In this document: one piece after another, positions 11,666 to 38,715 of the stretch
Numbering within the stretch: position 1 is the first letter of the stretch
How the letters are laid out: the number at the start of each line of letters is the position of its first letter
Origin: a virus
Length of the DNA: 47,084 nucleotides
Reading direction: 5' to 3' (one strand)
Virus record (IMG/VR): IMGVR_UViG_3300036770_002448
Span: 1-47,084 of that record
Notes under the pieces: generated by a model
What the model was told of the DNA's origin: nothing
Seen by the model: the letters and a program-made list of their open reading frames with translations, nothing else
Database searches by the model: none
Made by a program: the position numbers and the translations under genes

Positions 11666-12726
11666 GCAGCAAATTCACGCATCGTTTCAGCTATCAGAAC
11701 CCCAAGCCGCAGAAGACTGCGTGCGTGGTGCGGTACGGCGCGTTCGGAGACTTGATGCAGGCCAGCAGCGTCTGGGCTGGGCTGAAGAAGCAAGGATATC
11801 ACGTCACGGTGTTCACCAGCCCGCCCGGGTCTGACGTCATCACCAACGACCCCAACATCGACAACCTTGTCCTCTTCGACAAGGACCAGGTTCCCAATGG
11901 CAATCTGTCAGACTTCTGGAACTGGCAGAAGAAAAAGTTCGACAAGTGGGTCAACCTCAGCGAGTCGGTGGAGGGGACGCTGCTGGCCATGTCCGGCCGC
12001 ATGCCCGCGCTGTACCCCCCGCAAGTGCGTCACGCGCTGATGAACCGCAACTACGTCGAGTTCCAGCACGCTATCGCAGAGATCTCCTACGAGTTCAATG
12101 CTCGCTTCTACCCCACGCAGGAAGAGGTGCGGTGGGCCAAGCGTGAGCGTGATAAGCTCGGCACCGGCCCGGTGGTAGTGTGGTCGCTGGCCGGCAGCAG
12201 CGTGCACAAGACCTGGGCGGGGCTCGACCACGCTATGGCGAGCATTCTGATCGAGTTCCCCACGGCACGCATTGTTCTCACGGGCGGGCACGACTGCGTA
12301 ATCTTGGAAGCCGGGTGGGAGAACGAGCCCCGCGTTCTCAGGCGCTCCGGCGTCTGGACCATCCGCGAGACGCTGAGTTTTGCCCAGCGGGCTGACCTTG
12401 TCATCGGGCCAGAGACTGGAGTGCTGAACGCGATGGCTTGCGAGCCGATGGCCAAGCTGGTATTCCTTTCCCACAGCACGCACGAGAACCTGACGCGTGA
12501 CTGGACCAACACGACCCCCCTCTGGAGCCAGAACACGCGCTGCGCTGGCCGTGGCGACAACGCGGCCCCTGCGTGCCACATGCTGCACTACGGATGGTCC
12601 AACTGCACTCGCGATGACGAGACGGGCACTGCTCAGTGCCAGAAAGACATCCACGTTGTGGATGTGTGGGCTGCCGTGTACAATGCTCTGAAGGTGGTGG
12701 TCGATTCTCGTAGAGAGGCGGCATAG
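11659..12726 (+). CDS. Glycosyltransferase family 9 (heptosyltransferase-like)
   Basis: The 355-aa protein resembles GT9 enzymes, which transfer heptose from ADP-heptose to LPS inner core. Domain 1 begins VVRYGAFGDLMQASSVWAGL (the ADP-heptose:LPS heptosyltransferase opening) and includes VTVFTSPPGSDV. Domain 2 has VWSLAGSSVHKTWAGLDH, ARIVLTGGHD and the donor-site region RADLVIGPETGVLNAMACE. The C-terminus has six Cys within ~45 residues. Start is GTG 11659 or 11662, overlapping the preceding stop. It is embedded in the tail-gene operon, so it is expressed late. It could modify host LPS or another acceptor; its natural partner would be the nucleotide-heptose pathway at 29524-31838. Confidence 0.72.
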   Translation: MVSSKFTHRFSYQNPKPQKTACVVRYGAFGDLMQASSVWAGLKKQGYHVTVFTSPPGSDVITNDPNIDNLVLFDKDQVPNGNLSDFWNWQKKKFDKWVNLSESVEGTLLAMSGRMPALYPPQVRHALMNRNYVEFQHAIAEISYEFNARFYPTQEEVRWAKRERDKLGTGPVVVWSLAGSSVHKTWAGLDHAMASILIEFPTARIVLTGGHDCVILEAGWENEPRVLRRSGVWTIRETLSFAQRADLVIGPETGVLNAMACEPMAKLVFLSHSTHENLTRDWTNTTPLWSQNTRCAGRGDNAAPACHMLHYGWSNCTRDDETGTAQCQKDIHVVDVWAAVYNALKVVVDSRREAA

Positions 12727-21027: not shown

Positions 21028-22712
21028 ACGAGACTCAAGTAGACGAAGAAGGCTGGGAGACTGCACCGGACGATGGGTGGGAGAGCGCCCGCGTTCGCCA
21101 GCCCAGCATCTACGCTCCGCGTGAGCAGTGGGCTGAGTACCGTGCTGCGCAGCAGCGCGGGGACGCCCTGCCCGGTCCCACTGGCCAGAAAGAGCGCACG
21201 TTCGCAGCCGGTAGCACTCCGGGTGAGATCGTGTTTGGTCTGCTGGAGGCCCCGCTGACGATGGTGTCCGGCGCTGCGGGTGCCGTGGCGGGTGGTCTGG
21301 CGGGCCTGGGCCGTGGCGCGTACGAGCTGGCGATGGGCCGGGGCCGTGATGTGGCGTTGCAGCGTGCGGCAAAGCAAGTCGAGGATGTGCAGGGGGCGAT
21401 GACGTACCAACCCCGCACCGACGTCGGGACTGCCATCCCGCAGATCTTGTCCGCCCCCATGACTGCTGCCCAGACCGTCGGTCGCGCCGCTGGCGAAGCT
21501 GTCGGCGGCCCCGCAGGGGGTGAGCTGGGCGCTGCTGTGCCCGATATCGCTGCTACCGTCGTCGGTGGTGCGAGCGCCCTCCGTGGCCGCGCCCCCACGG
21601 GAGCTCCCCAGTTCTCGCAAGAGCAGCAGGCCATAAAGAACGCGCAAGCCGCAGGCTTCCGTGGCCTGCCCAGCGAGATTCGTGGTGGTCCCGTCAACAT
21701 CGGCATGGAGTCTGTCGCAAAGCAGGCTCCTCTCGTCAAACGTCTCGCTGCGTTCAACGAGGAGCGTGCGAGCCAGCTCGCTCGGCAGGAAATTGGCCTG
21801 CCCCCCACGGGCAGGCTGGACGAGCAGTCTCTCAAGCAGGTGCGCGACAGGGCGGGCGCGGTGTACGATCAAGTACGGTCGCTCCCTGAGACGATCGACG
21901 TTCGGAGGGTCAATCCCAACTGGGTGAACGATGTGGTGGACTTGGACGCCAAGTTCCGCAGCATCAAGAATGTGCTGCCCGACATCTACAGGAATCCCAG
22001 CCTGGAGCGCCTGCGGGGGTCTATGGCCCGCGTGCGCACTCTCACGCCAGAGGAGACGGTGGACATCATCCGCACGCTGCGTGACGAGTCTTCCCGCACG
22101 CTGAAGCGCACCGACGTCTCCTCCAAGGAGGTGGATGCCGCCTACGCCATCAAGGAAGCGGCCAACATGTTCGAGAACCTGCTGGATACGCATCTGCAAG
22201 CGACGGGTCGTGGAGCACTGATGAATCGCTACCGCGCCGCCCGCGAGACGCTGGCCAAGACCTACACCATCGAAGACGCCACCAATCTGACCACTGGCAA
22301 GGTGGATCCGCAGGCCATCCGTCGTGCGCGGGACAAGGGAGAGAAGCTCACTGGCAATCTGCTCAAGATTGCTGACGCTGCTGCAGCCCTCCCGTCCGTG
22401 GTGCGCAAGACGGAGGGGATAATCACTCCAGAGGGCATGGTGCTGAGCGACTACGCGATGGGCCTGGGCATCCCCGCAGCCATCTTCAGCAATCAGCCTG
22501 CTGTAGCGGCGGGTCTGGCGGCGGGGGCCGCTGCGCGACCTGCCGTGCGTGCCGCTGCGGGGAGCGAGTGGTATCAGCGCCAATTCGCGCAGCCACGAGC
22601 TGAGACTCCCAGGCCCCCTCTGAGCAGATCGGCCCCGGGCGCTGCTGCGATTGGCGTGGCCGCGCAGCCGAATCAGGCCCCGTTCCTGATGTCTGAGGAG
22701 GAGCAGCAGTGA
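21024..22712 (+). CDS. Ejection protein with membrane-active segments (562 aa)
   Basis: ATG 21024 overlaps the preceding stop (ATGA). The N-terminus is acidic with a repeated short motif (EEGWETAPDDGWESA). Hydrophobic Gly/Ala-rich stretches at ~69-100 (LLEAPLTMVSGAAGAVAGGL), ~150-185 (GAAVPDIAATVVGGASAL) and ~475-515 (GLGIPAAIFSNQPAVAAGL) could enter membranes. The intervening region (~195-450) is helical and charged. This is the pattern of podovirus ejection proteins that build a trans-envelope conduit. No lytic transglycosylase motif was seen. Confidence 0.55.
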   Translation: MNETQVDEEGWETAPDDGWESARVRQPSIYAPREQWAEYRAAQQRGDALPGPTGQKERTFAAGSTPGEIVFGLLEAPLTMVSGAAGAVAGGLAGLGRGAYELAMGRGRDVALQRAAKQVEDVQGAMTYQPRTDVGTAIPQILSAPMTAAQTVGRAAGEAVGGPAGGELGAAVPDIAATVVGGASALRGRAPTGAPQFSQEQQAIKNAQAAGFRGLPSEIRGGPVNIGMESVAKQAPLVKRLAAFNEERASQLARQEIGLPPTGRLDEQSLKQVRDRAGAVYDQVRSLPETIDVRRVNPNWVNDVVDLDAKFRSIKNVLPDIYRNPSLERLRGSMARVRTLTPEETVDIIRTLRDESSRTLKRTDVSSKEVDAAYAIKEAANMFENLLDTHLQATGRGALMNRYRAARETLAKTYTIEDATNLTTGKVDPQAIRRARDKGEKLTGNLLKIADAAAALPSVVRKTEGIITPEGMVLSDYAMGLGIPAAIFSNQPAVAAGLAAGAAARPAVRAAAGSEWYQRQFAQPRAETPRPPLSRSAPGAAAIGVAAQPNQAPFLMSEEEQQ

Positions 22713-23881
22713 AGGTGCTGGTACTGGACGAGAAGGCGCGTGCTTTGCATCTGGTTCTGAAGGCCAGCGCAGCGGGTCACGACGTCCGCTGGTACGCGCC
22801 TGACAGCGACACGGGCAAAGGCTTCCGCGGATTTGAGCGCGTAGACAACTGGGTGGGCTCAGCAGGGTGGGCCGACATCATCTTCAACGCTGGGTGCGAG
22901 AAGCAGGAGCCCAAGCTGCGACAGATGATGGAGAGGAAGTACCCCATCTGGAACACTCCCTGCGAGATAGAGTTCGACGACTACGAGGATCTTGCCCCGC
23001 CCACGCAGAAGCATGACTCTGTCGCCTCTGCCATGACCGCACTGTACGCCAAGCCGGAACGCTACGTTCTCAAAGGTGAGGACGTTGACACCTACGAGTC
23101 CCACTCTGCCGCGGACATGGTGGCGCACTTGCGCGACATGATCTTCTTCGACGGTGATCTTCTGCTGCAGGAGTACGTCGACGGTCTGCAAGTCACGGTG
23201 GTGCGCAGCTTCACGGCGGATGGGTGGGTGGGCCCCATCTACGAAGGGCTGACGGAGACGGGATTCGGCCACATGGTGGGAGAGTCCAAGGTGTTTGACG
23301 ACAGCCTGGGCAAGCTCACCAGCGTTCTTCAAGAGCGCAACTTCTGCGGCACGGTGATGGCGAAGTGCTGCGTCTCAGACGACGGCAAGCTGTTCGTCTT
23401 CAAGGTGAAGTGCGGGTGGCCCAAGTCGCTCGTCACCTACGCCCCCAGCGAGGACATGATGGCCTGGGTCGCTGCCGCGCTGAAAGGTGACGCCCCCTCC
23501 GCCAACTACAAGACCGACATCTCGTACTACGTCAAGCTGGAGACGGAAGACATTGGCTTTCCGGTCTACGGCATCTCTCGCGGCGTGCTGGCACATGCGC
23601 ACCCTCTGGAGGTATCGCTGCGACGCGTTCCTGACATGAGCGCAGAGAATACGATCGTAGAGCGTGATCTCTGGGTCACGACTGGCGAGTACGTAACTGT
23701 CGTCGACGGGTACGGAAGCTCTGCCCGCCAAGCGATGAAGCGAGCGATGAGTACCGTAGAGAAGATCTACACGGCTGGCATCGAGCCGGACATCGAGGAG
23801 GAGTACTTCGAAAACTTGAAAGAGAACGTTGCGTTCGCACAATCGCAAGGTTACTTGAAGGATTTCGTGTATGGCGGCTGA
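22709..23881 (+). CDS. PurD-like ATP-grasp ligase
   Basis: The 390-aa protein looks like glycinamide ribonucleotide synthetase (GARS): an N-terminal Rossmann-type part (MKVLVLDEKARALHLVLKAS), the ATP-grasp core (AKPERYVLKGEDVDTYESHS, FDGDLLLQEYVDGLQVTVVR), a metal-site region (GKLFVFKVKCGWPKSLVTYA) and a C-domain ending AVEKIYTAGIEPDIEEE-like. In PurD this site ligates glycine to phosphoribosylamine. Here the usual acidic/Asn metal ligands of the core are altered (FKVKCGWPK), so substrate or activity may differ. ATG 22709 overlaps the previous stop. Its place among ejection genes is odd for a metabolic enzyme; it may act on a phage-specific acceptor or be a virion component. Confidence 0.6.
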   Translation: MKVLVLDEKARALHLVLKASAAGHDVRWYAPDSDTGKGFRGFERVDNWVGSAGWADIIFNAGCEKQEPKLRQMMERKYPIWNTPCEIEFDDYEDLAPPTQKHDSVASAMTALYAKPERYVLKGEDVDTYESHSAADMVAHLRDMIFFDGDLLLQEYVDGLQVTVVRSFTADGWVGPIYEGLTETGFGHMVGESKVFDDSLGKLTSVLQERNFCGTVMAKCCVSDDGKLFVFKVKCGWPKSLVTYAPSEDMMAWVAAALKGDAPSANYKTDISYYVKLETEDIGFPVYGISRGVLAHAHPLEVSLRRVPDMSAENTIVERDLWVTTGEYVTVVDGYGSSARQAMKRAMSTVEKIYTAGIEPDIEEEYFENLKENVAFAQSQGYLKDFVYGG

Positions 23882-28475: not shown

Positions 28476-28901
28476 ATGGCTGCACCAATTCTCATGGGTC
28501 TGGCGCACGCGGGGGCAAGCTTCGCCGGGACGCTGGCGGGGGCCAAGCTCGCAGAGATGGCCGAGAAGCGACGGAAGAAGGCCGCCGCCCCGCCTCCTCC
28601 GCCCCCTCCTCCACCAGCGGCCAAGAAGGCTGAAGCTCCCGCCCCTGCTCCCGCCCCTGCTCCCGCCCCTGCTCCCGCCCCTGCTCCCGCCCCTGCTCCC
28701 AAGAGCGCCACTCGCAAGGCGTTCGAGAAAGAGTTCGCCGCCGCCCGCGAGCGTGGGGACGTTGTGTTCACCTTCCGCGGCAAAGAGTACAGCACTCGCC
28801 AAGCGGGCGAGAAGGGTCCATCACACCGCGAGAAGATGATGGACCGCGCTGCGTACCGTCAGATGGTGGAAAACATCGAGCGCAGCCGCAAGAAAGACTA
28901 G
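28476..28901 (+). CDS. Pro/Ala-stalk protein after the endolysin; spanin-like candidate
   Basis: The 141-aa protein has a mildly hydrophobic N-terminus (MAAPILMGLAHAGASFAGTL), a basic patch (EKRRKKAA), a run of nine prolines, then an Ala-Pro stalk encoded by 12-bp tandem repeats, and a basic helical C-terminus (REKMMDRAAYRQMVENIERS). A membrane-anchored Pro stalk spanning the periplasm recalls TonB or spanins, and its place after holin and endolysin is where spanins sit. No lipobox or clear strong TM helix is visible, so this is only a candidate. Its TAG stop shares CTAG with the opposing gene. Confidence 0.5.
   Translation: MAAPILMGLAHAGASFAGTLAGAKLAEMAEKRRKKAAAPPPPPPPPPAAKKAEAPAPAPAPAPAPAPAPAPAPAPKSATRKAFEKEFAAARERGDVVFTFRGKEYSTRQAGEKGPSHREKMMDRAAYRQMVENIERSRKKD
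28635..28700 (+). repeat. 12-bp tandem repeat, 5.5 copies
   Basis: The unit GCTCCCGCCCCT repeats exactly five times from 28635 to 28694, plus a half unit to 28700. It encodes the Ala-Pro stalk of the surrounding gene. Perfect identity suggests recent expansion or slippage, so stalk length may vary between relatives. Confidence 0.9.
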
Positions 28902-29509
28902 CGGTATACCAGAAATCCCAGACGCTCGCCGTCTGGGTCGGACACGAAGTTGGGGTGCGCCGTGCTCTGCCCCCACCACACTGGAATGAGCGTGGTGGCC
29001 GCATGCTTCTCGTAGTCTGGGCTGGCGCGTAGGTGCACTTCGATCACGCGGCCCCCGATGGTCTCATAGTTCACTGCGCCGTACTTCTCGGACAGTGACC
29101 TGAACAGCTTGGGCACTTCCCCCGCCGTGGGGAGAGGCAGCTTGTCCCAGCGCAGGAATCGCTGCGGCCCGCTGGAGAAGCCCTTGTAGACGCAGACTAC
29201 CCGCCCACCCCTTAGATCGATGGATAGGTGGTCGCCAGTGAAGAGCTCCATCCAGAACGTGCCGGGCTGCAGATGATCCGTGTCTACCGTTGGGAACTCA
29301 ACGATGCTGGCCCCCCGCCCCATCCCCAGCATGTTGGTGATCGGCTTGACCATATACCGGCCTGGGTGGGGTAGGTCAACCCCCGCGGGACCGCAGACAT
29401 GGCCAAAGTAGCGGGACAAGATTAGCTTATCATACACCCACAAATCCTCAACCTCCACGTTGGGCCACGCTGCATGGTCGTAGGCGGCGGGGGTGGCTTG
29501 TGTGGGCAT
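28898..29509 (-). CDS. ATP-grasp-like protein (203 aa), last gene of the heptose operon
   Basis: No named family is certain. The pattern VYDKLILSRYFGHVCGPAGV, GRYMVKPITNMLGMGRGASI, GTFWMELFTGDHLSIDL and GGRVIEVHLRASPDYEK resembles an ATP-grasp core: a Lys-containing strand with a Gly-rich loop, then a Glu/Asp pair and a terminal E-x-H/N strand. I recall similar proteins from aquatic phages. It lacks the N-terminal Rossmann part. It could be a ligase acting on a modified sugar or base. Start ATG 29509 has GAGAGG upstream. Its stop overlaps that of the rightward gene at CTAG. It lies 14 bp after gmhB. Confidence 0.45.
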   Translation of the reverse strand: MPTQATPAAYDHAAWPNVEVEDLWVYDKLILSRYFGHVCGPAGVDLPHPGRYMVKPITNMLGMGRGASIVEFPTVDTDHLQPGTFWMELFTGDHLSIDLRGGRVVCVYKGFSSGPQRFLRWDKLPLPTAGEVPKLFRSLSEKYGAVNYETIGGRVIEVHLRASPDYEKHAATTLIPVWWGQSTAHPNFVSDPDGERLGFLVYR

Positions 29510-29523
29510 AGGGCTACGGCCTC

Positions 29524-30033
29524 TCAAATGGGCGCAGGACGCGTTAGCGCCACATAGGCAGGGGGGTAGTGGCTTGGCTGGTAAAAATTGCGCCAGGAGC
29601 CGTCCTTTGGCACGCGGATGCGGCGCCCCACGCACTCCACCATGTCGGATTCCTTGTCTCCAAACATGATGCACTTGTCCAGGTCCAGATCAAGCTCTGC
29701 GGCGGCGCGGTAGAACAAACCGCAGCGCGGCTTGCGGCACGGGCACTTCATCTCCGGCGTGTGCGGGCAGAAGTAAGTCTTGTCGATGTTGACACCGTGC
29801 ACGGCCAGCAGCTCAGACAGTCTGTGCTGAACTTGGGCATACTGGTGCCGAGTCATCAGCCAGCGCCCGATACCGCTCTGGTTGGTGACGATGACCAGCT
29901 TGTACTCCTTGGCCATCAGATCTTTCAGCGCCTCTACGACGCCGTCCAGCAACACCACATCATCGGGGTTGCTGATGTACCCCACATCTTTGATGAGCGT
30001 ACCGTCTCGGTCAAGAAACGCTGCTACGTTCAC
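29524..30033 (-). CDS. gmhB: D-glycero-D-manno-heptose-1,7-bisphosphate 7-phosphatase
   Basis: HAD-superfamily phosphatase of 169 aa. Motif I is FLDRDGTLIK (nucleophile D8, acid/base D10), motif II VTNQSGIGR, a Lys/Arg-containing CRKPRCG, and the acidic motif FGDKESDM. A zinc-binding loop C89-P-H91...C97-P-C99 is diagnostic of the GmhB/histidinol-phosphatase group and distinguishes it from generic HADs. It removes the 7-phosphate from heptose-1,7-bisphosphate, the step between HldA and HldC. GTG 30033 is preceded by GAGGAG and overlaps hldC by 23 bp. Confidence 0.82.
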   Translation of the reverse strand: MNVAAFLDRDGTLIKDVGYISNPDDVVLLDGVVEALKDLMAKEYKLVIVTNQSGIGRWLMTRHQYAQVQHRLSELLAVHGVNIDKTYFCPHTPEMKCPCRKPRCGLFYRAAAELDLDLDKCIMFGDKESDMVECVGRRIRVPKDGSWRNFYQPSHYPPAYVALTRPAPI

Positions 30034-30433
30034 GGATACTCCTCACGATGTCGGTTGTACTGATATCCGGCAGGCGTGGCAACAGCGTGATGATTATACC
30101 TCGCTTGGTCAGCCACTGGCCCTCTTCAGAGTTCAGCACATCGCATGAAGTGTCCTTGACGTACAAGTCAGGGAACCTGCCGGATTCCTCCCACTTGCGC
30201 ACGGGGTTGGGCCCGTCAAACGGCACGACGCGGGACACGCAGCGCAGGGCGGACAGTATCTTCACCCGATGCTGCAGGGGCACGATGGGGCGGGTGCTGC
30301 CCTTCAGCGCCCGCACGCTCTCGTCGCTGTTGATGAACACCACGACGCTGCCGAACGTGGCAGCCTGCTCCAGAAACGTCACATGCCCCGCGTGCAGCAG
30401 ATCGAAGCACCCATTCGTCCACACGGTCTTCAC
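30011..30433 (-). CDS. hldC: D-glycero-beta-D-manno-heptose 1-phosphate nucleotidyltransferase
   Basis: A 140-aa cytidylyltransferase-fold protein matching the C-terminal (RfaE domain II) half of HldE. TVWTNGCFDLLHAGHVTFLE contains the HxGH nucleotide-binding motif at residues 14-17; INSDESVRALKGSTRPIVPL, RPIVPLQHRVKILSAL and the late ISTTDIVRSIRER (ISTT-like motif) agree. It would make ADP-heptose from heptose-1-phosphate and ATP; the nucleotide specificity cannot be proven here. In E. coli it is fused to the kinase; here the two are separate genes with gmhA between, as HldA/HldC in other proteobacteria. GTG 30433 overlaps the gmhA stop (GTGA) after GGAGAAG. Confidence 0.8.
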   Translation of the reverse strand: MKTVWTNGCFDLLHAGHVTFLEQAATFGSVVVFINSDESVRALKGSTRPIVPLQHRVKILSALRCVSRVVPFDGPNPVRKWEESGRFPDLYVKDTSCDVLNSEEGQWLTKRGIIITLLPRLPDISTTDIVRSIRERSSVS

Positions 30434-30999
30434 TTGTCTTCTCCGATCAGTGTCTCGTCCAGCATCTCGCAGATGGCGTGCGCGACGATCATGTGGCACT
30501 CTTGAATCCTGGCGGTCTCCTCGCCCCCCACGGCCACGGTGATGTGAGAGTACGCCCCCAGCGGGGATGGCTTGCTGCCCGTGAACGAGTAGACCGTGCC
30601 CCGCACTTCTTCACGCGCCCAGCGGGCGGCGCTCACCACGTTGGCGCTGCGCCCGCTCGTGCTGATGCACCACAGAATATCTTCCGGCTGCATCAGTGCT
30701 TGCACCTGCCGTGAGAAGACATGGTTGAAATCGTAGTCATTGCCCACGGCAGTGAGGATGGAGGTATCCACCGTGAGCGCGATGGCGGGGTATCCAACAC
30801 GCTCACGCTGGTAGCGCCCCACCAGCTCCGCGGCGATGTGCTGGCAGTCTGCTGCGCTGCCGCCATTCCCGCACAGCAGCACCTTCCCGCCGTTCAGCAG
30901 GCAGGCGGAGATGCCATTCACCATCTCTTCGATTCGTGGCTTCATGCTGCGGATCGTACCCAGCGCCTTCACATGACGGTCGAGTATGCCTTCAAGCAT
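30430..30999 (-). CDS. gmhA: Sedoheptulose-7-phosphate isomerase
   Basis: A 189-aa SIS-domain isomerase, close to the ~192 aa of E. coli GmhA. CGNGGSAADCQHIAAELVGR holds the substrate loop and zinc ligands H54 and E58. WCISTSGRSANVV is the second phosphosugar loop, and RIQECHMIVAHAICEM supplies Q166 and H174 with the family's spacing. It converts the host pentose-phosphate intermediate sedoheptulose-7-phosphate into D-glycero-D-manno-heptose-7-phosphate, the first committed step. Start ATG 30999 has AAGGAG nine bases upstream. It overlaps hldA by 31 bp. Confidence 0.88.
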   Translation of the reverse strand: MLEGILDRHVKALGTIRSMKPRIEEMVNGISACLLNGGKVLLCGNGGSAADCQHIAAELVGRYQRERVGYPAIALTVDTSILTAVGNDYDFNHVFSRQVQALMQPEDILWCISTSGRSANVVSAARWAREEVRGTVYSFTGSKPSPLGAYSHITVAVGGEETARIQECHMIVAHAICEMLDETLIGEDK

Positions 31000-31838
31000 T
31001 GGTCCAGCTCCTTGCGGGTAATGATAGCAGTGCCCAGCTTGGACACTGCGATAGCTCCGGCCGCGCTGCCCCACTGGGCGGCGGTGGAGAACGTTTCTCC
31101 CTCGCTCAGCGCGACGGCCATCGCGGCGAGGTAGCTGTCGCCCGCGCCGGTAGGGTCAACGCACTGGACTGGGATGGGTTTGATCTGCTCGTCCTCCAGC
31201 CCGAAGCCAGAGAACTTGGTAGACCCAGCGGCCCCCGCAGTCTGAATGATGTACTCCACATCCAGCTGGCGAGCCAGATGGCGCGGATTGCCGGTGACGG
31301 CCGTCACCTCGCTGTAGTTGCCCTTGATGACGTCTGCGTGGGCGTAGCGTTCCCAGTTGGTGCCCTTGGGGTCGACGATGGTGATTTTGTTGCGGGCGTG
31401 GGCAAGCATGTCCTTCACGTTGCGCAGAGCACCCTTGCCATAGTCGCTGAAGACGATAACGTCGAAGGCGTTGAACATGTCAAGGAACCGCTCCCCCACC
31501 AGATCGCTCTCGGCTTCTGTGAGGAAGTAGTCGTCATCGATGCGGGCCCGCATCACCCCGTCGACGAACACGCGCGTCTTAATGGTGGTCTGCGACACGG
31601 GGATGATGCTGGCAATCATCCCAGGTGGCAGATGGGATCCAGAGGCCAGACAGGTGAGCAGCGTCACGTCTCCCCCCATAGCCTGGACATTGGCCGCGAC
31701 GTTGGCCGCGCCACCGGGGTTCTTCCTCTGGGACAAGAGGTCGTAGATGACGATTGGTGCTTCTGGGCTGATGCGGCTAACCTCGCAGTTGAGCGAGATG
31801 TCGCGCATGCTGTCACCAACTACGAGTATCTTTCTCAT
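30969..31838 (-). CDS. hldA: D-glycero-beta-D-manno-heptose-7-phosphate kinase
   Basis: A 289-aa PfkB/ribokinase-family enzyme matching the RfaE domain I kinase. KILVVGDSMRDISLNCEVSR and SPEAPIVIYDLL are typical HldE openings, NPGGAANVAANVQAMGG is the substrate Gly-Gly region, and DPTGAGDSYLAAM carries the catalytic Asp (234) and anion hole. It phosphorylates heptose-7-phosphate at C1. The N-terminal extension is a little shorter than in bacterial HldE. Start ATG 31838 has AAGGAGAT upstream. Confidence 0.85.
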   Translation of the reverse strand: MRKILVVGDSMRDISLNCEVSRISPEAPIVIYDLLSQRKNPGGAANVAANVQAMGGDVTLLTCLASGSHLPPGMIASIIPVSQTTIKTRVFVDGVMRARIDDDYFLTEAESDLVGERFLDMFNAFDVIVFSDYGKGALRNVKDMLAHARNKITIVDPKGTNWERYAHADVIKGNYSEVTAVTGNPRHLARQLDVEYIIQTAGAAGSTKFSGFGLEDEQIKPIPVQCVDPTGAGDSYLAAMAVALSEGETFSTAAQWGSAAGAIAVSKLGTAIITRKELDQCLKAYSTVM

Positions 31839-32031
31839 ACACCAAATCTCCTTTGCTGTCCAGCCGCTGCACAGCCAGATGGTTTGCGATCGTGGGGTGG
31901 GCCAGCTTGGCAGCCTCGATCGCGTCTTTCCTGGAGCGTGCGTGCACCACTCCAATCTTTGATTCTCGAATGTGTACGCTCCCCTGTGGCGGCACATGTC
32001 GATACAGATAGAACACTTGATAGGGTTTCAT
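31813..32031 (-). CDS. Small hypothetical protein (72 aa) leading the heptose genes
   Basis: Unrecognised. MKPYQVFYLYRHVPPQG is followed by a segment with VVHARSRKDAIEAAKLAHP, a mixed alpha/beta pattern used in several small phage proteins that end with a domain of residues such as TIANHLAVQRLDSKG. It overlaps hldA by 26 bp, so it is coupled to it. The ribosome site is weak. It could be a leader that couples or regulates translation of the operon, but this is speculation. Confidence 0.5.
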   Translation of the reverse strand: MKPYQVFYLYRHVPPQGSVHIRESKIGVVHARSRKDAIEAAKLAHPTIANHLAVQRLDSKGDLVYEKDTRSW

Positions 32032-32066
32032 GAGACTATTTGCGTTGCTGCACCCTGCCAGTATGC

Positions 32067-32109
32067 CGGGGCGCGGGGTCTCTGCAATAGGGGCAAACCC
32101 CGCACCCCG
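32067..32109 (-). promoter_or_regulatory. Hairpin in the leader of the heptose operon
   Basis: Arms 32067-32079 and 32097-32109 pair over 13 positions with one mismatch that becomes a G-U pair only in the leftward transcript. The loop is 17 nt. No U-tract follows, so it is not a standard terminator. It fills most of the 32032-32118 gap and may process, stabilise or attenuate the downstream transcript. Confidence 0.45.
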
Positions 32110-32118
32110 ACAAGGGTA

Positions 32119-32559
32119 CTACCCCTGGTTCACGTACCCCTGGGGCTTGGCGCAGTCGTGAATGTCGTAGGCCTCCCCTGCCGACAAGGTGCGTACGGTC
32201 ACGCCACAGTGACGGCACTTGTAGTGATTGGTGTTGTCACCAAAGAAGCCCTCCAACTGCCAGTCCTCGTTGAAGTCCACGCGCAGGTCTGGTACTGGGG
32301 TATTCTGCACCACGGGGTCGGCCCGCGTGTCGTACTTGCGGGCAACCTCGATGTACTTCTCCAGGAAGTGCTTGGCCTTCTCCAGATCCTGCAGCCTCCG
32401 TGCATGCGTGTCGTGCTTGTCCTTCCACCGCATCACGTACTTGGTGATCTGGTATTGGAAAGGATCCCACTGGTAGTGCACGGCCAGATCCCAGTGCTGC
32501 ATGTTTTTGCCGATGGCGCGATAGTGGTCTCCCGCCACTTGCTTGTCGTTGGCGCTCAT
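32119..32559 (-). CDS. DUF3310 protein with C-terminal zinc motif
   Basis: The N-terminal ~75 residues match the DUF3310 pattern of small phage proteins: QVAGDHYRAIGKNMQHWDLA, DPFQYQITKYVMRWKDKHD and LQDLEKAKHFLEKYIEVARK. The C-terminal part has HYKCRHCGVTV and DIHDCAK, a likely Cys/His zinc site not part of the core domain. DUF3310 proteins occur in nucleotide-metabolism regions of phages; no function is established to my knowledge. ATG 32559 overlaps the previous stop (ATGA). Confidence 0.68.
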   Translation of the reverse strand: MSANDKQVAGDHYRAIGKNMQHWDLAVHYQWDPFQYQITKYVMRWKDKHDTHARRLQDLEKAKHFLEKYIEVARKYDTRADPVVQNTPVPDLRVDFNEDWQLEGFFGDNTNHYKCRHCGVTVRTLSAGEAYDIHDCAKPQGYVNQG

Positions 32560-32942
32560 TCGATGATCCTCCAGTCTTCTGACAGCATATCAGTCTGAGA
32601 TGCGAGCCACGGCACGCGGGCCCCCGGGGTGTTCTGCGCGTTGTCGGGATACGACATGAAGATGTACGGCAGCGTCATCTTGCTGTGCGCGTCGGGCACT
32701 TGCAGCTCCAGCCACAGACCCTTGCCGTTCCACCCCACCCGTTGGACCTTCAGGCCCTTCTTCAGCGCGTCGATAGCCAGCCCAAAGGTCATCCCATTGC
32801 ACGGGCGGTAGGCGGCTTCGAACGCTTTCTTGGGAGACCATGACGCATATCCATCCTCGTAGCGCACGAAGTAGCCCTGTCCCTTACCCTCCACGTTGGC
32901 TGGTTCTGCGCTGATGATCTTGGTTCCTATGTACTTCTTCAT
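32556..32942 (-). CDS. DUF2829 / Tad2-like protein (candidate anti-Thoeris)
   Basis: Residues 51-128 match DUF2829: MTFGLAIDALKKGLKVQRVG, WNGKGLWLEL, TLPYIFMSY and VPWLASQTDMLSEDW. Thoeris anti-defence protein 2 (Tad2) belongs to this domain family and works by sequestering the cyclic ADP-ribose-type signal of the Thoeris defence system. Residues 1-50 (KKYIGTKIISAEPANV, YEDGYASWSPKKAFEAAYRP) form an additional N-terminal domain often seen with this family. Whether this member binds such a signal cannot be read from the sequence. ATG 32942 overlaps the previous stop, with GGAGGAGG upstream. Confidence 0.7.
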   Translation of the reverse strand: MKKYIGTKIISAEPANVEGKGQGYFVRYEDGYASWSPKKAFEAAYRPCNGMTFGLAIDALKKGLKVQRVGWNGKGLWLELQVPDAHSKMTLPYIFMSYPDNAQNTPGARVPWLASQTDMLSEDWRIIE

Positions 32943-33319
32943 TCCCCCTCCTCCGCAAGACGGCTGCGCAGCTCGTAGCCCATCAGCGGCCAGATCTTGG
33001 TCACGGCGTTGGCCCGGGCGACCTTGCGGCCGATCTCTGGGTCGAAGTTCTCCGGGCTGGCACATGCCGACTCGCCCGTGACGGTGAAGCCGTTGCGCAG
33101 GGTCAACACGCAGAAGGTGAGCAGATGAAGAGGAGAGTCACCAACGACACCCGCGTCGTCGATGCTTTCGCCGTGCTCATCGATGCCGTTTCCGAGAACT
33201 CCTTGCGCGGCCGTGAAGTAGTGCTCGCCGACGATGTTCGCCTCGATGTCGGCCGGCGTGATGCGCGGGGCGGTCAGGCCCTTGGCCTGGATCTCTTGTT
33301 CGATGATGTCGTCAGTCAT
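32939..33319 (-). CDS. N4 gp49 / Sf6 gp66 family protein
   Basis: The 126-aa protein contains the family signature: IVGEHYFTAAQGV, then LLTFCVLTLRNGFTVTGESA, FDPEIGRKVARANAVTKIWP and the end LMGYELRSRLAEE. The family is widespread in phage accessory regions with no established biochemical role. Start ATG 33319 has AAGGAGGA upstream and overlaps the stop of the thymidylate synthase homologue (ATGA). Confidence 0.72.
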   Translation of the reverse strand: MTDDIIEQEIQAKGLTAPRITPADIEANIVGEHYFTAAQGVLGNGIDEHGESIDDAGVVGDSPLHLLTFCVLTLRNGFTVTGESACASPENFDPEIGRKVARANAVTKIWPLMGYELRSRLAEEGE

Positions 33320-34275
33320 TCCTTGGTCCTCCTTTGGCACCATTGAGCAAAGGCCGCACCCCAATCGCTGTTCGGGATGCTCAGCCAGTTCACCTTCCCC
33401 CCGTACTTACGGGCAAGATAGGCATCGCGTAGCTGCACCGCAACGTCACGCATGAAGTGCGTGCGCATGCTGGTGAGCCCGTCAACCAGGGCCACGCAGT
33501 CGTCGAGAAGGTACTCGTACTTCTCGTTGCCCTGCAGGATCGGGTGGGGGGATACCCCAGTCTCGTAGAGGTCTTGCGGCTCCGTGGGCGGGTTGTCCAG
33601 GAAGTCTCGCACCATCGGGTTGCTTGAGTAGGCGTGCCAGTTGTTGCTGAACTGCCTATACACCCCCACGGGCGCACCGACGGCGTGGGCAATCACCTCC
33701 TGCAGAATGCTGAAGTGCACCACGTTCGCACCGTAGCAGCCCCACAAGATGTCGTTGCTGCGGCAGCACACCGTCATGTTGAGCCGCCCGCCACGTAGGT
33801 CGAAGTAGATGTGCGTGTTGCACGGCCTGTCGCGCCACTCACCCGTCAGATCACTCTCAGGATCCCACATGCCGATCACGGCCTGCCGCGTGTCGGGGTT
33901 GCGGCGCAGCACATTGATGACCTCGTCCACCTGATCAATTGGCCAGTTGTTCCTCCATCGCCACCCATACGCCCCGTGCATGCGACCATCGGGCTCTGCG
34001 TAATTGGAGATGTTGGAGCTGAACTGCTTCAGCCATCCAACGTCTTGCTCTCCCGCCAGCATCCACAACGACTCCATGAGATGGAACACATGGTTCGCAT
34101 CTCGGCGGGCGTTGAACAGCACGCGCTGGCGGGGGTTGAGGTACGTGGTGAGCACCGGGCCGGGGGCCACCAGCACCTCTCCGTTCCGGCTGGTTGAGTG
34201 CTCCCCCGCGCTGCGGAGGTAGAACCACGCGTCTACGAACGCATGGTTCACGTTCTTTGCAGTGATGGAAAACAT
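33316..34275 (-). CDS. Thymidylate synthase homologue, probable dUMP/dNMP hydroxymethylase
   Basis: A 319-aa thymidylate-synthase-fold protein. PCNTHIYFDLRGGRLNMTV holds the catalytic Cys152; CCRSNDILWG has the phosphate-binding Arg and conserved Asp; YGANVVHFSILQEVIAHAVG has N184 where thymidylate synthase has the Asn that reads uracil, while T4 dCMP hydroxymethylase has Asp. This favours dUMP as substrate. The WGCYGAN block differs from the classic GLGVPFN, as in phage hydroxymethylase-type members. With the hypermodification genes just upstream, the likely product is hydroxymethyl-dUMP; ordinary dTMP synthesis is the alternative. ATG 34275 follows AGGAG and overlaps the MazG-like stop (TAATG). 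Confidence 0.78.
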   Translation of the reverse strand: MFSITAKNVNHAFVDAWFYLRSAGEHSTSRNGEVLVAPGPVLTTYLNPRQRVLFNARRDANHVFHLMESLWMLAGEQDVGWLKQFSSNISNYAEPDGRMHGAYGWRWRNNWPIDQVDEVINVLRRNPDTRQAVIGMWDPESDLTGEWRDRPCNTHIYFDLRGGRLNMTVCCRSNDILWGCYGANVVHFSILQEVIAHAVGAPVGVYRQFSNNWHAYSSNPMVRDFLDNPPTEPQDLYETGVSPHPILQGNEKYEYLLDDCVALVDGLTSMRTHFMRDVAVQLRDAYLARKYGGKVNWLSIPNSDWGAAFAQWCQRRTKE

Positions 34276-34658
34276 TACTTCGTTTCTCCTGTGATGAACA
34301 GCTCTCGGATCTTGGGCTCGGGCTTCCAGTAGCCAGGACCCTTCTGCACCTTGCCGTTGATGATGATGGCCCTGCCGTCCGGCCCCAGCTTGGACATGTT
34401 GCTGTCCATGATGATGGACAGCACTTTCTCGATGGGGATGCCGTGCCGGTAGGCCTCGCTGGTGCAGTAGACGATGATGTCTCCCAGCCAGTCTGCCAGA
34501 TCCGCAATGTCCAGGATTGCGTCTGCCTCTTGCATCTCCTCGTAGAGGATCTCCTTGAAGCGGCGGATGCGCTGGCGAGACTCAATCGCTGCTTCCGTGG
34601 GTTGCGGCAGGCCGAAGGCCGTCTGAAACTCACGAACGCGCTGAAAGAAATGGGTCAT
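34275..34658 (-). CDS. MazG-like nucleotide pyrophosphohydrolase (PRA-PH fold)
   Basis: The 127-aa all-alpha protein begins FFQRVREFQTAFGLPQP and has the metal-site pattern RRFKEILYEEMQEADAI (ExxE-type) followed by IADLADWLGDIIVYC (ExxD-type partner) and EKVLSIIMDSNMSKLGPDG, characteristic of all-alpha NTP pyrophosphatases. It hydrolyses a (d)NTP to the monophosphate. Next to a nucleotide hydroxymethylase, its plausible use is to remove a canonical dNTP or feed the monophosphate pool. GAGGAA precedes ATG 34658; it overlaps the next upstream gene by 29 bp. Confidence 0.75.
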   Translation of the reverse strand: MTHFFQRVREFQTAFGLPQPTEAAIESRQRIRRFKEILYEEMQEADAILDIADLADWLGDIIVYCTSEAYRHGIPIEKVLSIIMDSNMSKLGPDGRAIIINGKVQKGPGYWKPEPKIRELFITGETK

Positions 34659-35457
34659 ACTTGTTCCTCACATGTCCGTTGCTGTACTTCACTTTGCACC
34701 ACTTGCTGAACTCACACAAGCAGTTCTGGAAGTCCTGGTTGCTGATTCTGGGAATCTCCGGGTTGATGAATGGCTCGGTCACCTCTCTGCACTGGTCGAG
34801 CATCATCCAGTAGTTGGTGGCAGTCACGCCGTAGGGGGCGCGGAAGAAGAACCAGCTCAACCCCCGTAGACTGCCAGGGCCGGGGGCAGACCATGTCCAC
34901 CAGTCCGGGGCGTACTGCAGGGGATGGCCTTCTGTGTTCTTCATGTCCGCGATGATCTGGGCGGACAGAAAGCTGCCCAGCCCATCGATCTGCGACAGCC
35001 AGAAGTGCGCATCCTCCAGGCTCTTGAAGCTGGCTGATTGTAGCTGGGCCTTCTCCACGCGCTGCAGCACAAGGAGGATGTAGTCCAGCTTTACCATCTT
35101 CCTACCACAAGTGCTGATGGTGTACGCACTGGTGAACACCTTGGCCCCCGTGGCGGCTCGCTGCTTCAGCATCTCCACGGCACGCTCTGGCGTCCCTGCC
35201 AGGGTGATCTCTGCCAGACTGTCCGGCCAGTTGATCATCCTCGCGAGCACGAAACGCCACACCGGATCCGTAAAGTAGTTCCAGTTGGCGCGGATCCAGC
35301 GCGTGACGCGGTCATCCTCACGGTGCACGTTGCAGAAGCGCACGGTGTTGAAGATCTGATCACTGCTCCACGGGGGCGGCTGTCCAGACTCCTTGCGGAG
35401 CTTGATGGCGTGCCGCTCATTGATCCAGTAGCCGAGCTGATCTGACAGCCAGTCCAT
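34630..35457 (-). CDS. DNA base hypermodification protein (HMUDK helical / aGPT-PPlase-like)
   Basis: The 275-aa helical protein has the motif set of phage base-hypermodification proteins annotated as 5-hmdU kinase helical domain or alpha-glutamyl/putrescinyl thymine pyrophosphorylase clades: GYWINERHAIKLRKESGQPP, PWSSDQIFNTVRFCNV, REDDRVTRWIRANW, and a helix-hairpin-helix-like LSQIDGLGSFLSAQIIADM. Such enzymes act on hydroxymethyl-pyrimidines already in DNA, either activating or replacing the hydroxyl. No P-loop kinase domain is attached here. It sits between a TET-associated-type glycosyltransferase and a nucleotide hydroxymethylase. Start ATG 35457, preceded by GAAGAAGG, overlaps the glycosyltransferase by 41 bp. 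Confidence 0.68.
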   Translation of the reverse strand: MDWLSDQLGYWINERHAIKLRKESGQPPPWSSDQIFNTVRFCNVHREDDRVTRWIRANWNYFTDPVWRFVLARMINWPDSLAEITLAGTPERAVEMLKQRAATGAKVFTSAYTISTCGRKMVKLDYILLVLQRVEKAQLQSASFKSLEDAHFWLSQIDGLGSFLSAQIIADMKNTEGHPLQYAPDWWTWSAPGPGSLRGLSWFFFRAPYGVTATNYWMMLDQCREVTEPFINPEIPRISNQDFQNCLCEFSKWCKVKYSNGHVRNKYDPFLSARS

Positions 35458-36208
35458 GCTGCAACGCCTTCTTCCATTGGATGATGACATCGGTGCGCGT
35501 GGCACCGCCCCAGGCCGTCTTCGTGGTTTTCTCCACAGTCTTGACGAACTGCGGATAACGGCTCTGCAGCTTTTCAGCCGCTGCACGGTGCATCTCCAAC
35601 GTGCGGTACGTGGAAGCACCGCCAGCCGTACCGCTCCCCCGTTGGTTCTGGACGTACGAGTTGAGGATGCAGTTGGTGTACCCCCGCGTGAGCAGATGCA
35701 GCGTGGCTTCAAAGTCGTCCATCACTGTACTGTTGCGGAAGTCTACCCCCTCCTTGAAGAAGATACTGCGCTGGTAGCCGATGACGCGTGGGGCCCGTGT
35801 GCAGCTCAGCAAGCTATCAGTGTTCCTGTTGGCCCCCTCTCGCGTGGCGATGCCAACGTGTGCGTAGCCGCACAGAAGGACCTCCACCCCCTCCAGCATA
35901 CCCCGTATTTCTCCCGTGTTCGGCTCACGAAAGCGCGTGGGATCGTCCGTACGGCGCACCGCGAAGGTAAGATCATCATCCATCATGAGCACACGCTCTT
36001 CTGGCGCTTGCTCCATGATCCACTGCCGCGTGGCAGCGATGCCGGAGACGTCCTCCGGAGGTGTGATGATGCTGCTGTGTACTCCGTGATAATCTGCCAG
36101 CTCGTTTTGCGGAATAACGAGCGTTATGGGGTACGGCGACTCTTCTCGCAACTCGTTCAGTGTGTACTGAAGTCGTGGACGCCGCATTGTTGGGATGAAT
36201 ATGTGCAT
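35417..36208 (-). CDS. TET-associated-type glycosyltransferase (TAGT), DNA base modification
   Basis: A 263-aa GT-A-fold protein. The N-terminus MHIFIPTMRRPRLQYTLNEL, VTLVIP-like PITLVIPQNELADYHG, and DVSGIAATRQWIMEQ lead to MMDDDLTF, whose DDD at 77-79 is the metal/donor-binding motif. This order (IP-T-x-R, GIxxTRxWI, MDDD) matches phage glycosyltransferases described next to TET/JBP enzymes and other base-modification genes, which put sugar on hydroxymethyl-bases in DNA. The donor sugar is unknown; the phage's own nucleotide-heptose is a candidate. ATG 36208 follows AGGAG and a strong hairpin. Confidence 0.7.
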   Translation of the reverse strand: MHIFIPTMRRPRLQYTLNELREESPYPITLVIPQNELADYHGVHSSIITPPEDVSGIAATRQWIMEQAPEERVLMMDDDLTFAVRRTDDPTRFREPNTGEIRGMLEGVEVLLCGYAHVGIATREGANRNTDSLLSCTRAPRVIGYQRSIFFKEGVDFRNSTVMDDFEATLHLLTRGYTNCILNSYVQNQRGSGTAGGASTYRTLEMHRAAAEKLQSRYPQFVKTVEKTTKTAWGGATRTDVIIQWKKALQHGLAVRSARLLDQ

Positions 36209-36268: not shown

Positions 36269-37231
36269 TCAGTCGATGGTCTCTTCCACGACCTCGGCGT
36301 CCACCGGGTTGGCCTCCGGGGCGGGGGCCTCGGCCCGACGGGTCTTGCGCGGCTTCGTCTCCTTGGCCGGCTTCTCGGCCTTGGGTGCACGCTCCTTCTT
36401 CACCACCGCCTTGGGGTCGTACCCCTCGATGGAGATGAAGCCGTGCGCCGAGTCGTACGCCATGTCGGGGGAGGTGCCGCCGGCGTCGAGGAACTCCTTC
36501 TGGGTCATGCCCGTGCGGTACAGGGCGAACCGCTTCTCGGCCGCGCAGCCGGGACGCTTGGGGTTGTGGTCGACCAGCACGGTGATCTTGGCGTCCGGCG
36601 ACACGCCACGCAGACCACGCGGCGTGTTCGCTGCTCGGGTGGCGGTGGCGGCTCCGGTGGAGGCTTCGGTGGCTTGGGTCACTTCAGCAGCGGCTTGCGC
36701 CTCCATCTCGGGGGTGGCGCCTTCCTTCTTCTTGCGAGCCATGATGGCTGTTCCTTCCTCTATCCACGTGGGCGCGGGGCGGCGCGTCCACTTACTTTGC
36801 TCTACCTTCCGCCCCAGGTAGTATCTGCGATAGGCAATGATGCTATTGCCCGGAACCTTGAACTCGTCTGGCATAGCCTGCGGGGGCTCCGACCAGATGG
36901 GTGGCATTCCTGCCGTTTCTCCTATGCCAGCGGCGCGGTACAGCACATCTAGGCTCGCATGTACCCTGCCGCTGTATCTGTACGAGTACTCCTCCAGAAG
37001 TGCCTTGCCATGCTCGGCCAGCCACCTGAAGTTGTGAATTCCATCTCCTGCCCACAGAACGCTGGGGTGGCGGGGATGCGTGGGCCGGTACAGCTCTGGC
37101 TTCCACACTCCCCAGCGATCGCAAACTGTGCTGAGTATCTGCGCAGTTTCTAGGATCATCTTCACAACATGCTTGTCGTGAAGAGACTGCGCAGCTACCA
37201 CGGGATCATCATCAACGAAAAATACGTTCAC
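36269..37231 (-). CDS. Pyrimidine-dimer-glycosylase-like protein fused to a phage Lys/Ala-rich domain
   Basis: The N-terminal ~160 residues (VDDDPVVAAQSLHDKHVVKM, ILETAQILSTV, YRPTHPRHPSVLWAG, IIAYRRYYLGRKVEQSKW) match phage proteins related to pyrimidine dimer DNA glycosylase (endonuclease V-like), a repair enzyme for UV damage. The C-terminal ~157 residues from MARKKKEGATPEMEAQAA carry ITVLVDHNPKRPGCAAEKRF, ALYRTGMTQKEFLDAGG and a Pro/Lys/Glu tail, seen elsewhere as a stand-alone phage protein. An internal ATG (36742) with GGAAGGA upstream could start that second protein separately. GTG 37231 is the main start; a sigma70-like promoter lies just upstream. Confidence 0.6.
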   Translation of the reverse strand: MNVFFVDDDPVVAAQSLHDKHVVKMILETAQILSTVCDRWGVWKPELYRPTHPRHPSVLWAGDGIHNFRWLAEHGKALLEEYSYRYSGRVHASLDVLYRAAGIGETAGMPPIWSEPPQAMPDEFKVPGNSIIAYRRYYLGRKVEQSKWTRRPAPTWIEEGTAIMARKKKEGATPEMEAQAAAEVTQATEASTGAATATRAANTPRGLRGVSPDAKITVLVDHNPKRPGCAAEKRFALYRTGMTQKEFLDAGGTSPDMAYDSAHGFISIEGYDPKAVVKKERAPKAEKPAKETKPRKTRRAEAPAPEANPVDAEVVEETID

Positions 37232-37251: not shown

Positions 37252-37279
37252 ATTATGCTAGAGACTCCGTCATTTGCAA
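37252..37279 (-). promoter_or_regulatory. Sigma70-like promoter for the leftward modification operon
   Basis: On the leftward strand TTGCAA (37279-37274) and CATAAT (37257-37252) are 16 bp apart, a 4/6 and 5/6 match to the -35 and -10 consensus. The region is A+T-rich in an otherwise GC-rich genome and lies in the 89-bp gap between helicase and 36269-37231. It would drive the glycosylase-like, hypermodification and perhaps heptose genes. Confidence 0.55.
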
Positions 37280-37320
37280 ATTGTATTTTGCAATGAAAGA
37301 TTCTGCCTAATAGGTTTAGC

Positions 37321-38715
37321 CTATCGACCCTTCATCTCTCGCAGGATGGATAGAAACGCACTCTGGCTGGAATCTTTGGCGTTGAGCACAGAAAGTACAC
37401 GTTCGTCAACTGTGTCTTTCGCGATGATGCGGTACACGATCACATGCTTGGACGTCTGGCCCTGCCGCCACACTCGGTCAATGGTCTGGCTGTAGTCCTG
37501 CAGATTCCATGTGAGACCAAACATGATGACGTTGCGGCACTTGTTCTGTAATCCGTCAATGCCCAGGCTGATGCTGGAGAACTGCCCCATGCCAATCTGC
37601 ACCAGACCGCTGGAGAACAGGGTGATGTTCTCAGAGTCCTGCTTGGCACTGCCCCCCGTCAGCAGCACCGCCCGTGGGAAGGCTTTGCGCAGCTTCTCTA
37701 GGTCTGGCTTGAACTCGTACACGACGAGCGCACTCTCACCGCTGAGCTGCTCCAGCAAGTCCTTCAGAGCATCGATCTTGGCGTCGTGTATGTCTTCCCA
37801 CTCACGCTCTTCCGAGTTGGTGAACAGGCACCCATTGGCAATCTGCCGGCACTTGCTGGTCGCCACGGCGGCATTGTTGGCGACCACAAGCTGAGAATCC
37901 AGCGTCGCCAGCATGTGCTGCTCCATGCTGTCGTACTGGCTGCGGGCGTTGGGGGGTAGGTCGACCAGTATGTCGTTGAACGTGAGCTCTGGCATTTCCA
38001 GGTTGCCCTCTCGCTCCAGCACCAGCGTGAGAGGCTCTATCTTCCTGGCTATCTCTTCTGCCGCCCACGGGTGGGGGGCAAGATCGTAGCCCATGTAGTC
38101 CGTAGGGTAGAAGTATTTCGTCTTGTAGTGCGTCACGTACCTGCCCAGCGACGACCCCTCGTCCAGAATGTATACCTGCCCGAACAAATCCATCAACCCA
38201 TTGGGGGTGAACGTGCCGGTGAGGATGTACCGGCGCTTGAAGTTCTTTATGAATTTGCGCAGGCGCTTGAAGCGCTCAGTGCTGGTGTTCTTGAACTTTG
38301 TGCTCTCATCCACAACAAGGACGTCGAAGTGCTCCTTGAGCCACTCCTCCCACTCAGGCGTGCACAGCCACTCCAGCCCTTCGGGGTTGATGCAGTAGAT
38401 GTCTGCCGAGAGGTCTCGTAGGTTCTGCACGCGGTTCTTGCCGTGCAGTACATTCACTTTGAAGTCTGCAAACTGTGCCCAGCTATTCTTCTGCTTGGGC
38501 CAGACGTTGTAGACGACGCGCAGCGGTGCAATCACCAGCGTGCGCTTGATGAGCCGCTTATCCTTTAGGATCTTGATTATCGCGTAGGTTATCGTCGTCT
38601 TGCCGAGACCCGGTCTCAGAAGGAATCCTGCGCACGCCTGAGATATCCCCATGCGCACGGCCTGCTCTTGATAAGAGCGCGGCTTCCAAGAAGCCAATTG
38701 CTGCGTTGACATCAT
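37321..38715 (-). CDS. SNF2-like superfamily 2 helicase
   Basis: The 464-aa protein has the full helicase motif set: Q-like PRSYQEQAVRMGI, Walker A RPGLGKTT at 35-42, TLVIAPLRVVYNVWPKQ (Ia), Walker B VVDEST at ~135-140, motif III ILTGTFTPNG, and C-lobe motifs with IDGLQNKCRNVIMFGL and QTIDRVWRQGQTSKHV. This is the SNF2 type common in phage replication regions, acting as a dsDNA translocase in replication or recombination. ATG 38715 has GGAG seven bases upstream; an in-frame TTG at 38718 is rejected. The first 158 nt overlap the VRR-NUC gene. Confidence 0.82.
   Translation of the reverse strand: MMSTQQLASWKPRSYQEQAVRMGISQACAGFLLRPGLGKTTITYAIIKILKDKRLIKRTLVIAPLRVVYNVWPKQKNSWAQFADFKVNVLHGKNRVQNLRDLSADIYCINPEGLEWLCTPEWEEWLKEHFDVLVVDESTKFKNTSTERFKRLRKFIKNFKRRYILTGTFTPNGLMDLFGQVYILDEGSSLGRYVTHYKTKYFYPTDYMGYDLAPHPWAAEEIARKIEPLTLVLEREGNLEMPELTFNDILVDLPPNARSQYDSMEQHMLATLDSQLVVANNAAVATSKCRQIANGCLFTNSEEREWEDIHDAKIDALKDLLEQLSGESALVVYEFKPDLEKLRKAFPRAVLLTGGSAKQDSENITLFSSGLVQIGMGQFSSISLGIDGLQNKCRNVIMFGLTWNLQDYSQTIDRVWRQGQTSKHVIVYRIIAKDTVDERVLSVLNAKDSSQSAFLSILREMKGR

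Follow-up and report, generated by a model that had tools for sequence, protein, structure and literature searches.

A probable 5-hydroxymethyl-uracil hypermodification cassette with an exchangeable writer gene and an accessory heptose operon in a virus genome

The TAGT glycosyltransferase of phages T2 and T6 is described as a glucosylating enzyme (PMC13216743). Phages of the RB69 type carry genes of the sugar isomerase, kinase and NTP-transferase type near DNA arabinosyltransferases (PMC6024577, PMC13390438). In this study, we analysed a complete IMG/VR virus record, IMGVR_UViG_3300036770_002448, which is linear and 47,084 bases long (hereafter the window). Its minus strand carries a hypermodification cassette with a TAGT gene and, downstream, a four-gene operon for a nucleotide-heptose. 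The original prediction for this DNA, made from the letters alone, was that TAGT transfers heptose to a hydroxymethylated pyrimidine. The firmest new result of our analysis is an interchangeable writer slot beside HMUDK_hel, the helical partner domain of 5-hydroxymethyl-deoxyuridine (5-hmdU) DNA kinases. The heptose itself is more likely placed elsewhere than on DNA.

The slot was defined with the SNF2-type helicase (37321-38712, minus strand), which anchors the conserved replication module and was chosen regardless of sugars. The best 80 of 243 IMG/VR relatives were examined. HMUDK_hel lay directly downstream of SNF2 in 66 of the 80 loci, with a thymidylate-synthase (TS)-like gene next in most. 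Among the remaining 14, 13 had no HMUDK_hel in the stretch examined and one had it elsewhere. The gap between SNF2 and HMUDK_hel held exactly one writer in all 66 loci: TAGT (50), a P-loop protein like the 5-hmdU kinase (10), a GT4-like protein (4) or a protein unrelated to TAGT, here called GTB (2). A third GTB contig was found by a separate search, outside these 66 loci. The P-loop kinase of the slot matched the 5-hmdU DNA kinase family PF18748 at 5.7e-5 and 4.7e-4, under the family cut-off. GTB had no Pfam match. Its AlphaFold model was poor (pLDDT 54.8), and its Foldseek list consisted mainly of GT-B enzymes (best 4wyi, 7e-4; T4 alpha-GT at rank 34), too weak a result to name a donor. PDB sequence searches with GTB and with TAGT gave nothing meaningful. 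An FkbM-type methyltransferase accompanied one of the 50 slot TAGT loci and two of the four GT4-like loci. The slot shows that HMUDK_hel pairs with exchangeable writers, namely a kinase, a GT-A enzyme, a GT4-like and a GT-B-like protein. This suggests that HMUDK_hel is a general adaptor for 5-hydroxymethyl-uracil (5-hmU) and not specific to kinases. Knowing the writer would make it easier to predict the 5-hmU derivative that a phage carries.

In the window, TAGT, HMUDK_hel, a MazG-like protein and a TS-like protein follow one another head to tail on the minus strand (36208-33316). The writer is the GT-A type TAGT (35417-36208; PF20691, 63.7 bits against a cut-off of 27.5; phrog_842), which retains the DDD motif and all columns invariant in 34 other TAGTs. 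It takes the place of the P-loop 5-hmdU DNA kinase in the slot, and only part of the window's open reading frames (ORFs) was scanned for that kinase. Upstream, the slot is flanked by a protein with an N-terminal Pyr_excise-like domain (36269-37231, minus strand; PF03013, 1.8e-5; phrog_624). HMUDK_hel (34630-35583; PF18723, 2.4e-38, 132.6 bits against a cut-off of 25) has relatives that include a protein of Pseudomonas phage M6. It adjoins the TS-like hydroxymethylase, the pairing by which a 5-hmU cassette is recognized. The MazG-like nucleotide pyrophosphohydrolase (34275-34658; phrog_671, 2.4e-21) and the TS-like protein, a probable dUMP hydroxymethylase (33316-34275; PF00303, 1.2e-22; phrog_5131, 2e-95), complete the cassette. 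The TS-like protein retains a GAN motif, whose Asn we take to mark specificity for dUMP and not dCMP. One slot beside a constant HMUDK_hel is shared by glycosyltransferases and by a kinase family with a known part in 5-hmU chemistry, which argues that the window's TAGT acts on 5-hmU. Judged by its families and gene order, the minus-strand cassette appears to be a 5-hmU hypermodification cassette that probably puts a sugar on phage DNA. In one other locus (L008:3324-5060), TAGT is fused to a radical SAM/SPASM domain in a protein of 579 aa, beside HMUDK_hel and TS.

The heptose operon, HldA-GmhA-HldC-GmhB (31838-29524), lies on the strand of the cassette and downstream of it. The family matches and the gene order confirm both modules and the earlier statement that they lie on one strand. 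HldA, a PfkB-type heptose-7-phosphate kinase (30969-31838; PF00294; TIGR02198, 1.1e-52), is closest among solved structures to a heptose-7-phosphate kinase (4e84, 2e-31). GmhA, a sedoheptulose-7-phosphate isomerase (30430-31011; NF010546, 3.2e-58), is closest to a phosphoheptose isomerase (5i01, 3e-44). The corresponding structures for HldC, a heptose-1-phosphate nucleotidyltransferase (30011-30436; TIGR02199, 7.7e-33), and GmhB, a heptose-1,7-bisphosphate phosphatase (29524-30033; NF006506, 1.3e-42), are a putative cytidylyltransferase (5x9q, 8e-19) and a heptose-1,7-bisphosphate phosphatase (3l8e, 6e-25). Homologues of all four ADP-heptose pathway proteins are therefore present. All four stay under the curated NCBIfam equivalog cut-offs (GmhA, for example, 196.7 against 276 bits), which indicates that the phage heptose enzymes are divergent. 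The epimerase HldD, which gives L,D-heptose, was not found among those ORFs of the window that were scanned, and no search aimed at HldD was made. In the isolated Caulobacter phage Cr30 (L304, KF301602.1), genes annotated as phosphoheptose isomerase and as D,D-heptose 7-phosphate kinase adjoin those for a GT2 protein and a UDP-glucose 4-epimerase.

The junction between the two modules was said to consist of three small genes and a hairpin. The hairpin is real, and the small ORFs between TS and HldA number four, all on the minus strand: a member of the N4 gp49 / Sf6 gene 66 family (32939-33322; PF13876, 1.4e-32), a Tad2-like protein (32556-32945; PF11195, 1.6e-21), a DUF3310-like protein (32119-32559; phrog_5839, 1.6e-18) and a 72-aa ORF kept in relatives (31813-32031; 48% identity in three contigs). 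The Tad2-like domain is of the Thoeris anti-defence kind, and its gene stands between cassette and heptose genes. The G+C-rich hairpin (32028-32122, minus strand) folds at -48.8 kcal/mol (z -4.8), a value equalled by 0 of 200 shuffles. Among three relatives, one has a hairpin of similar strength but different sequence. A terminator and promoter scan of the region did not list this hairpin as a terminator. It could uncouple the cassette from the heptose operon. A shared promoter at 37252-37280 had also been proposed. A site was found there, but the region contains 3 promoter-like sites against 3.4 expected by chance, and we do not use it as evidence of co-expression.

The original prediction described the operon as making a donor of unknown acceptor. 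The donor operon stands, but this description leaves out a transferase of the phage itself, which had been mentioned only as a competing use. The gene in question (11662-12726) lies on the plus strand among the virion genes, as do a gene for an S-adenosylmethionine (SAM) methyltransferase (10697-11215; PF08241) and a PurD-like gene. An AlphaFold model of the protein, built from ten relatives (pLDDT 79, pTM 0.82), matched a Veillonella GT9 (VIA-align Z 24.3), WaaF of E. coli (22.9), WaaC (19.9) and TibC (19.2). A subunit of the plant chloroplast NDH complex (18.7-18.9) and UDP-GlcNAc 2-epimerases (14.7) ranked below these. The WaaC and TibC entries in the match list carry ADP-heptose-type ligands. 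On the basis of this model, the GT9-fold protein is a probable ADP-heptose heptosyltransferase. It had no PDB sequence match and no match among named phages. Fusions of the SAM methyltransferase with the GT9-like protein occur in several relatives, with both in one ORF in L184:1871-3451, L201:3179-4729, L195:1178-2734 and L128:9764-11353. A TylF-type O-methyltransferase gene stands directly upstream in G043 and G045.

The order TAGT or GTB, HMUDK_hel, TS, DUF3310, HldA, GmhA, HldC, GmhB was found in nine other viral contigs (G001-G007, G012 and G042), of which G002/G003 and G004/G005 share identical SNF2 proteins. A tenth operon contig (L118) ends before the cassette. Absence of such co-occurrence from related phages had been named in advance as a result that would speak against DNA heptosylation; with both modules in the same order in nine contigs, that absence was not observed. 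We compared 50 contigs, mostly of at least 30 kb, in which gmhA was present in 12, TAGT in 34 and GT9 in 13; since G043-G045 had been picked for GmhA and G042 for GTB, these counts are not unbiased frequencies. TAGT occurred in 6 of the 12 gmhA-positive and 28 of the 38 gmhA-negative contigs, and GT9 in 11 of 12 and 2 of 38, respectively. The sole gmhA-positive contig without GT9 is a 17.8-kb fragment (G007) with no structural genes in view. The two gmhA-negative contigs with GT9 are G016 and G008, the latter with just a GmhB-like gene. Among TAGT-positive, GT9-negative contigs, gmhA was found in 0 of 26. The complete genomes MW202897.1 and Brevibacterium phage LuckyBarnes have TAGT and lack gmhA; Brevibacterium is a Gram-positive genus. 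G016 (54 kb), from a related phage, has TAGT, HMUDK_hel, TS and GT9. It matched neither gmhA nor hldA and offers a natural comparison for DNA and lipopolysaccharide (LPS) chemistry.

The TAGT proteins themselves were also compared. The TAGTs of G001-G005 keep the columns conserved in at least 80% of the 34 other TAGTs, with two exceptions (I to V; P to T or K). An 18-kb fragment without gmhA (L002) shares the substitutions found in the TAGT group of the window. Operon-adjacent TAGTs show no residue signature of their own against these 34, and operon-bearing TAGTs fall at two positions of the TAGT tree. Had the donor changed, some trace in the sequence might be expected; none was seen, but donor choice can be subtle.

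Heptose genes also adjoin the terminase in the GT9 lineage. Six of the terminase-adjacent GmhAs, which are most of them, group in one clade apart from the cassette-adjacent GmhAs (SH-aLRT 100); most other branches of the GmhA tree are weak. This separate clade makes it probable, as far as the tree goes, that the GT9 lineage gained heptose genes more than once, at two places.

With moderate confidence, we believe that heptose goes to a non-DNA acceptor through the GT9-fold transferase of the phage and that the cassette glycosylates DNA separately. The preference rests on the GT9 fold, the terminase-adjacent heptose genes, the lack of a site trace in TAGT and the glucosylation carried out by the TAGT of T2/T6. 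The TS-like protein would make 5-hydroxymethyl-dUMP, which would then be incorporated into DNA. TAGT, aided by HMUDK_hel, would add a host sugar, probably from UDP-glucose, to 5-hmU in DNA. The four-gene operon would convert sedoheptulose-7-phosphate to an activated heptose, probably ADP-D-glycero-beta-D-manno-heptose. In the ADP-heptose pathway the steps follow the order GmhA, HldA, GmhB, HldC. The GT9-methyltransferase pair may then transfer the heptose to the host LPS core or to a virion component, late in infection. The donor, the acceptor and the timing in this scheme are what we infer from the gene content, families, gene order and predicted folds, which were observed. If heptose does go to LPS or a virion protein, this would be a phage that produces the heptose donor itself and encodes a heptosyltransferase among the genes for its capsid and tail.

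Several observations weigh against this view. The GT9-fold protein has no Pfam match at E 0.1. In 25 further GT9-anchored contigs, many of them fragments, gmhA and TAGT were each found in 0 of 25, which indicates that GT9 can do without the operon. One of the 25 (G051) has HMUDK_hel, and a P-loop kinase fills its slot. These contigs show that GT9 and the methyltransferase, usually joined by the PurD-like protein, are genes of the structural lineage, with or without heptose genes. Of 14 GT9-lineage contigs that are near-complete or have both halves visible, ten have TAGT or GTB in the slot, and gmhA was found in 8 of these 10 (present in G001-G006, G012 and G042; absent from G008 and G016) but in 0 of the 4 others (G051, G060, G062 and G064). 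This split speaks for a link of the operon to the slot. The SNF2 and GT9 trees give just 1-3 independent contrasts, too few for a statistical test of either the GT9-operon or the slot-operon association. G043-G045, in which the operon stands beside the terminase, have no PolA match. Their replication half is probably missing, so their lack of TAGT is uninformative; after the PolA and TS searches we dropped them as examples of heptose genes without TAGT.

The same split counts in favour of DNA heptosylation, the strongest of the alternatives, which we nevertheless consider unlikely. In that scheme the operon would supply ADP-heptose, and TAGT or its GT-B-like replacement would put heptose on 5-hmU with HMUDK_hel as the shared base-handling partner. 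The common strand and order of operon and cassette in the window and nine other contigs agree with it. Its best argument is that all three IMG/VR loci in which GTB replaces TAGT keep the operon, taken together with the precedent of RB69-type sugar genes near DNA arabinosyltransferases (PMC6024577, PMC13390438). On the other side, 28 of the 34 TAGT contigs lack gmhA, and operon-adjacent TAGTs have no site signature and occupy two tree positions. The TAGT of T2/T6 transfers glucose (PMC13216743), a strong hairpin separates the modules, and the GT9 heptosyltransferase fold is a competing user of heptose. The claim that TAGT uses the heptose of the operon was not borne out by these comparisons. 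Our searches of open-licence literature found no paper on heptosylated DNA; heptose on DNA, if it is there, would be a base modification absent from that literature.

It is still less probable that the operon merely raises the ADP-heptose pool of the host, for LPS repair or remodelling by host WaaC/WaaF or for superinfection exclusion, with no dedicated phage transferase. Heptose genes do occur in other kinds of phages, such as Cr30, and in many IMG/VR contigs whose fetched stretch shows no match to the cassette or to GT9, but the phage has its own GT9-fold protein, and in ten contigs, the window among them, the heptose operon keeps its place at the replication operon's 3' end. Least plausible of all is that the operon serves both the GT9 acceptor and DNA: it occurs most often in contigs that have GT9 together with a glycosyltransferase in the slot (8 of 10 contigs), but the idea requires one donor shared by unrelated enzymes.

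The replication module of the window runs on the minus strand with single-stranded-DNA-binding (SSB)-like, PolA, PD-(D/E)XK, VRR, SNF2, PF03013-like, TAGT, HMUDK_hel, MazG-like and TS-like genes; SSB-like, PolA, PD-(D/E)XK, VRR and SNF2 were named from the sequence, without family search. A megablast of 14 kb against named phages gave no match. The gene below GmhB (28898-29506, minus strand) had been called ATP-grasp-like, with the suggestion that it could add a further group. Its product matched no family in Pfam or NCBIfam at E 0.1, and thus no ATP-grasp profile; it corresponds to phrog_3577, of no assigned function. Relatives of phrog_3577 occur in 50 Synechococcus phage records and in none of the 182 fetched loci, and the proposed role was set aside. 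A PurD/GARS-like ATP-grasp protein (22709-23881, plus strand; relatives match PF01071) sits among the virion genes and accompanies the GT9 structural lineage.

In the Gram-negative ADP-heptose pathway, gmhA-hldE(hldA/hldC)-gmhB, the same four activities are found as in the phage, which has one gene for each in a compact operon, all below the equivalog cut-offs. The GT9-fold protein shares its predicted fold with WaaC/WaaF and the protein heptosyltransferase TibC but differs from them in having no sequence-family match, in its methyltransferase partner or fusion and in its position inside the virion genes. The window's TAGT belongs to the family of the T2/T6 TAGT (beta-glucosyl-HMC-alpha-glucosyltransferase, HMC being hydroxymethylcytosine) by curated Pfam score and phrog_842, and keeps the invariant residues. 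In contrast to T2/T6, it accompanies a dUMP-type TS and HMUDK_hel, no alpha-GT or beta-GT was recognized in the window, and it probably acts directly on 5-hmU. In the 5-hmdU DNA kinase cassettes of the M6 and ViI type, HMUDK_hel and the TS-like gene are adjacent as in the window, where a glycosyltransferase stands in the place of the kinase. The arabinosylation clusters of RB69-type phages likewise have phage-encoded sugar isomerase, kinase and nucleotidyltransferase-type genes near DNA glycosyltransferases; they involve cytosine and arabinose, whereas the window has heptose-type genes by profile, plus GT9 (PMC6024577, PMC13390438). With its accessory nucleotide-sugar operon, the arrangement varies the known hypermodification cassettes of phages in a new way.

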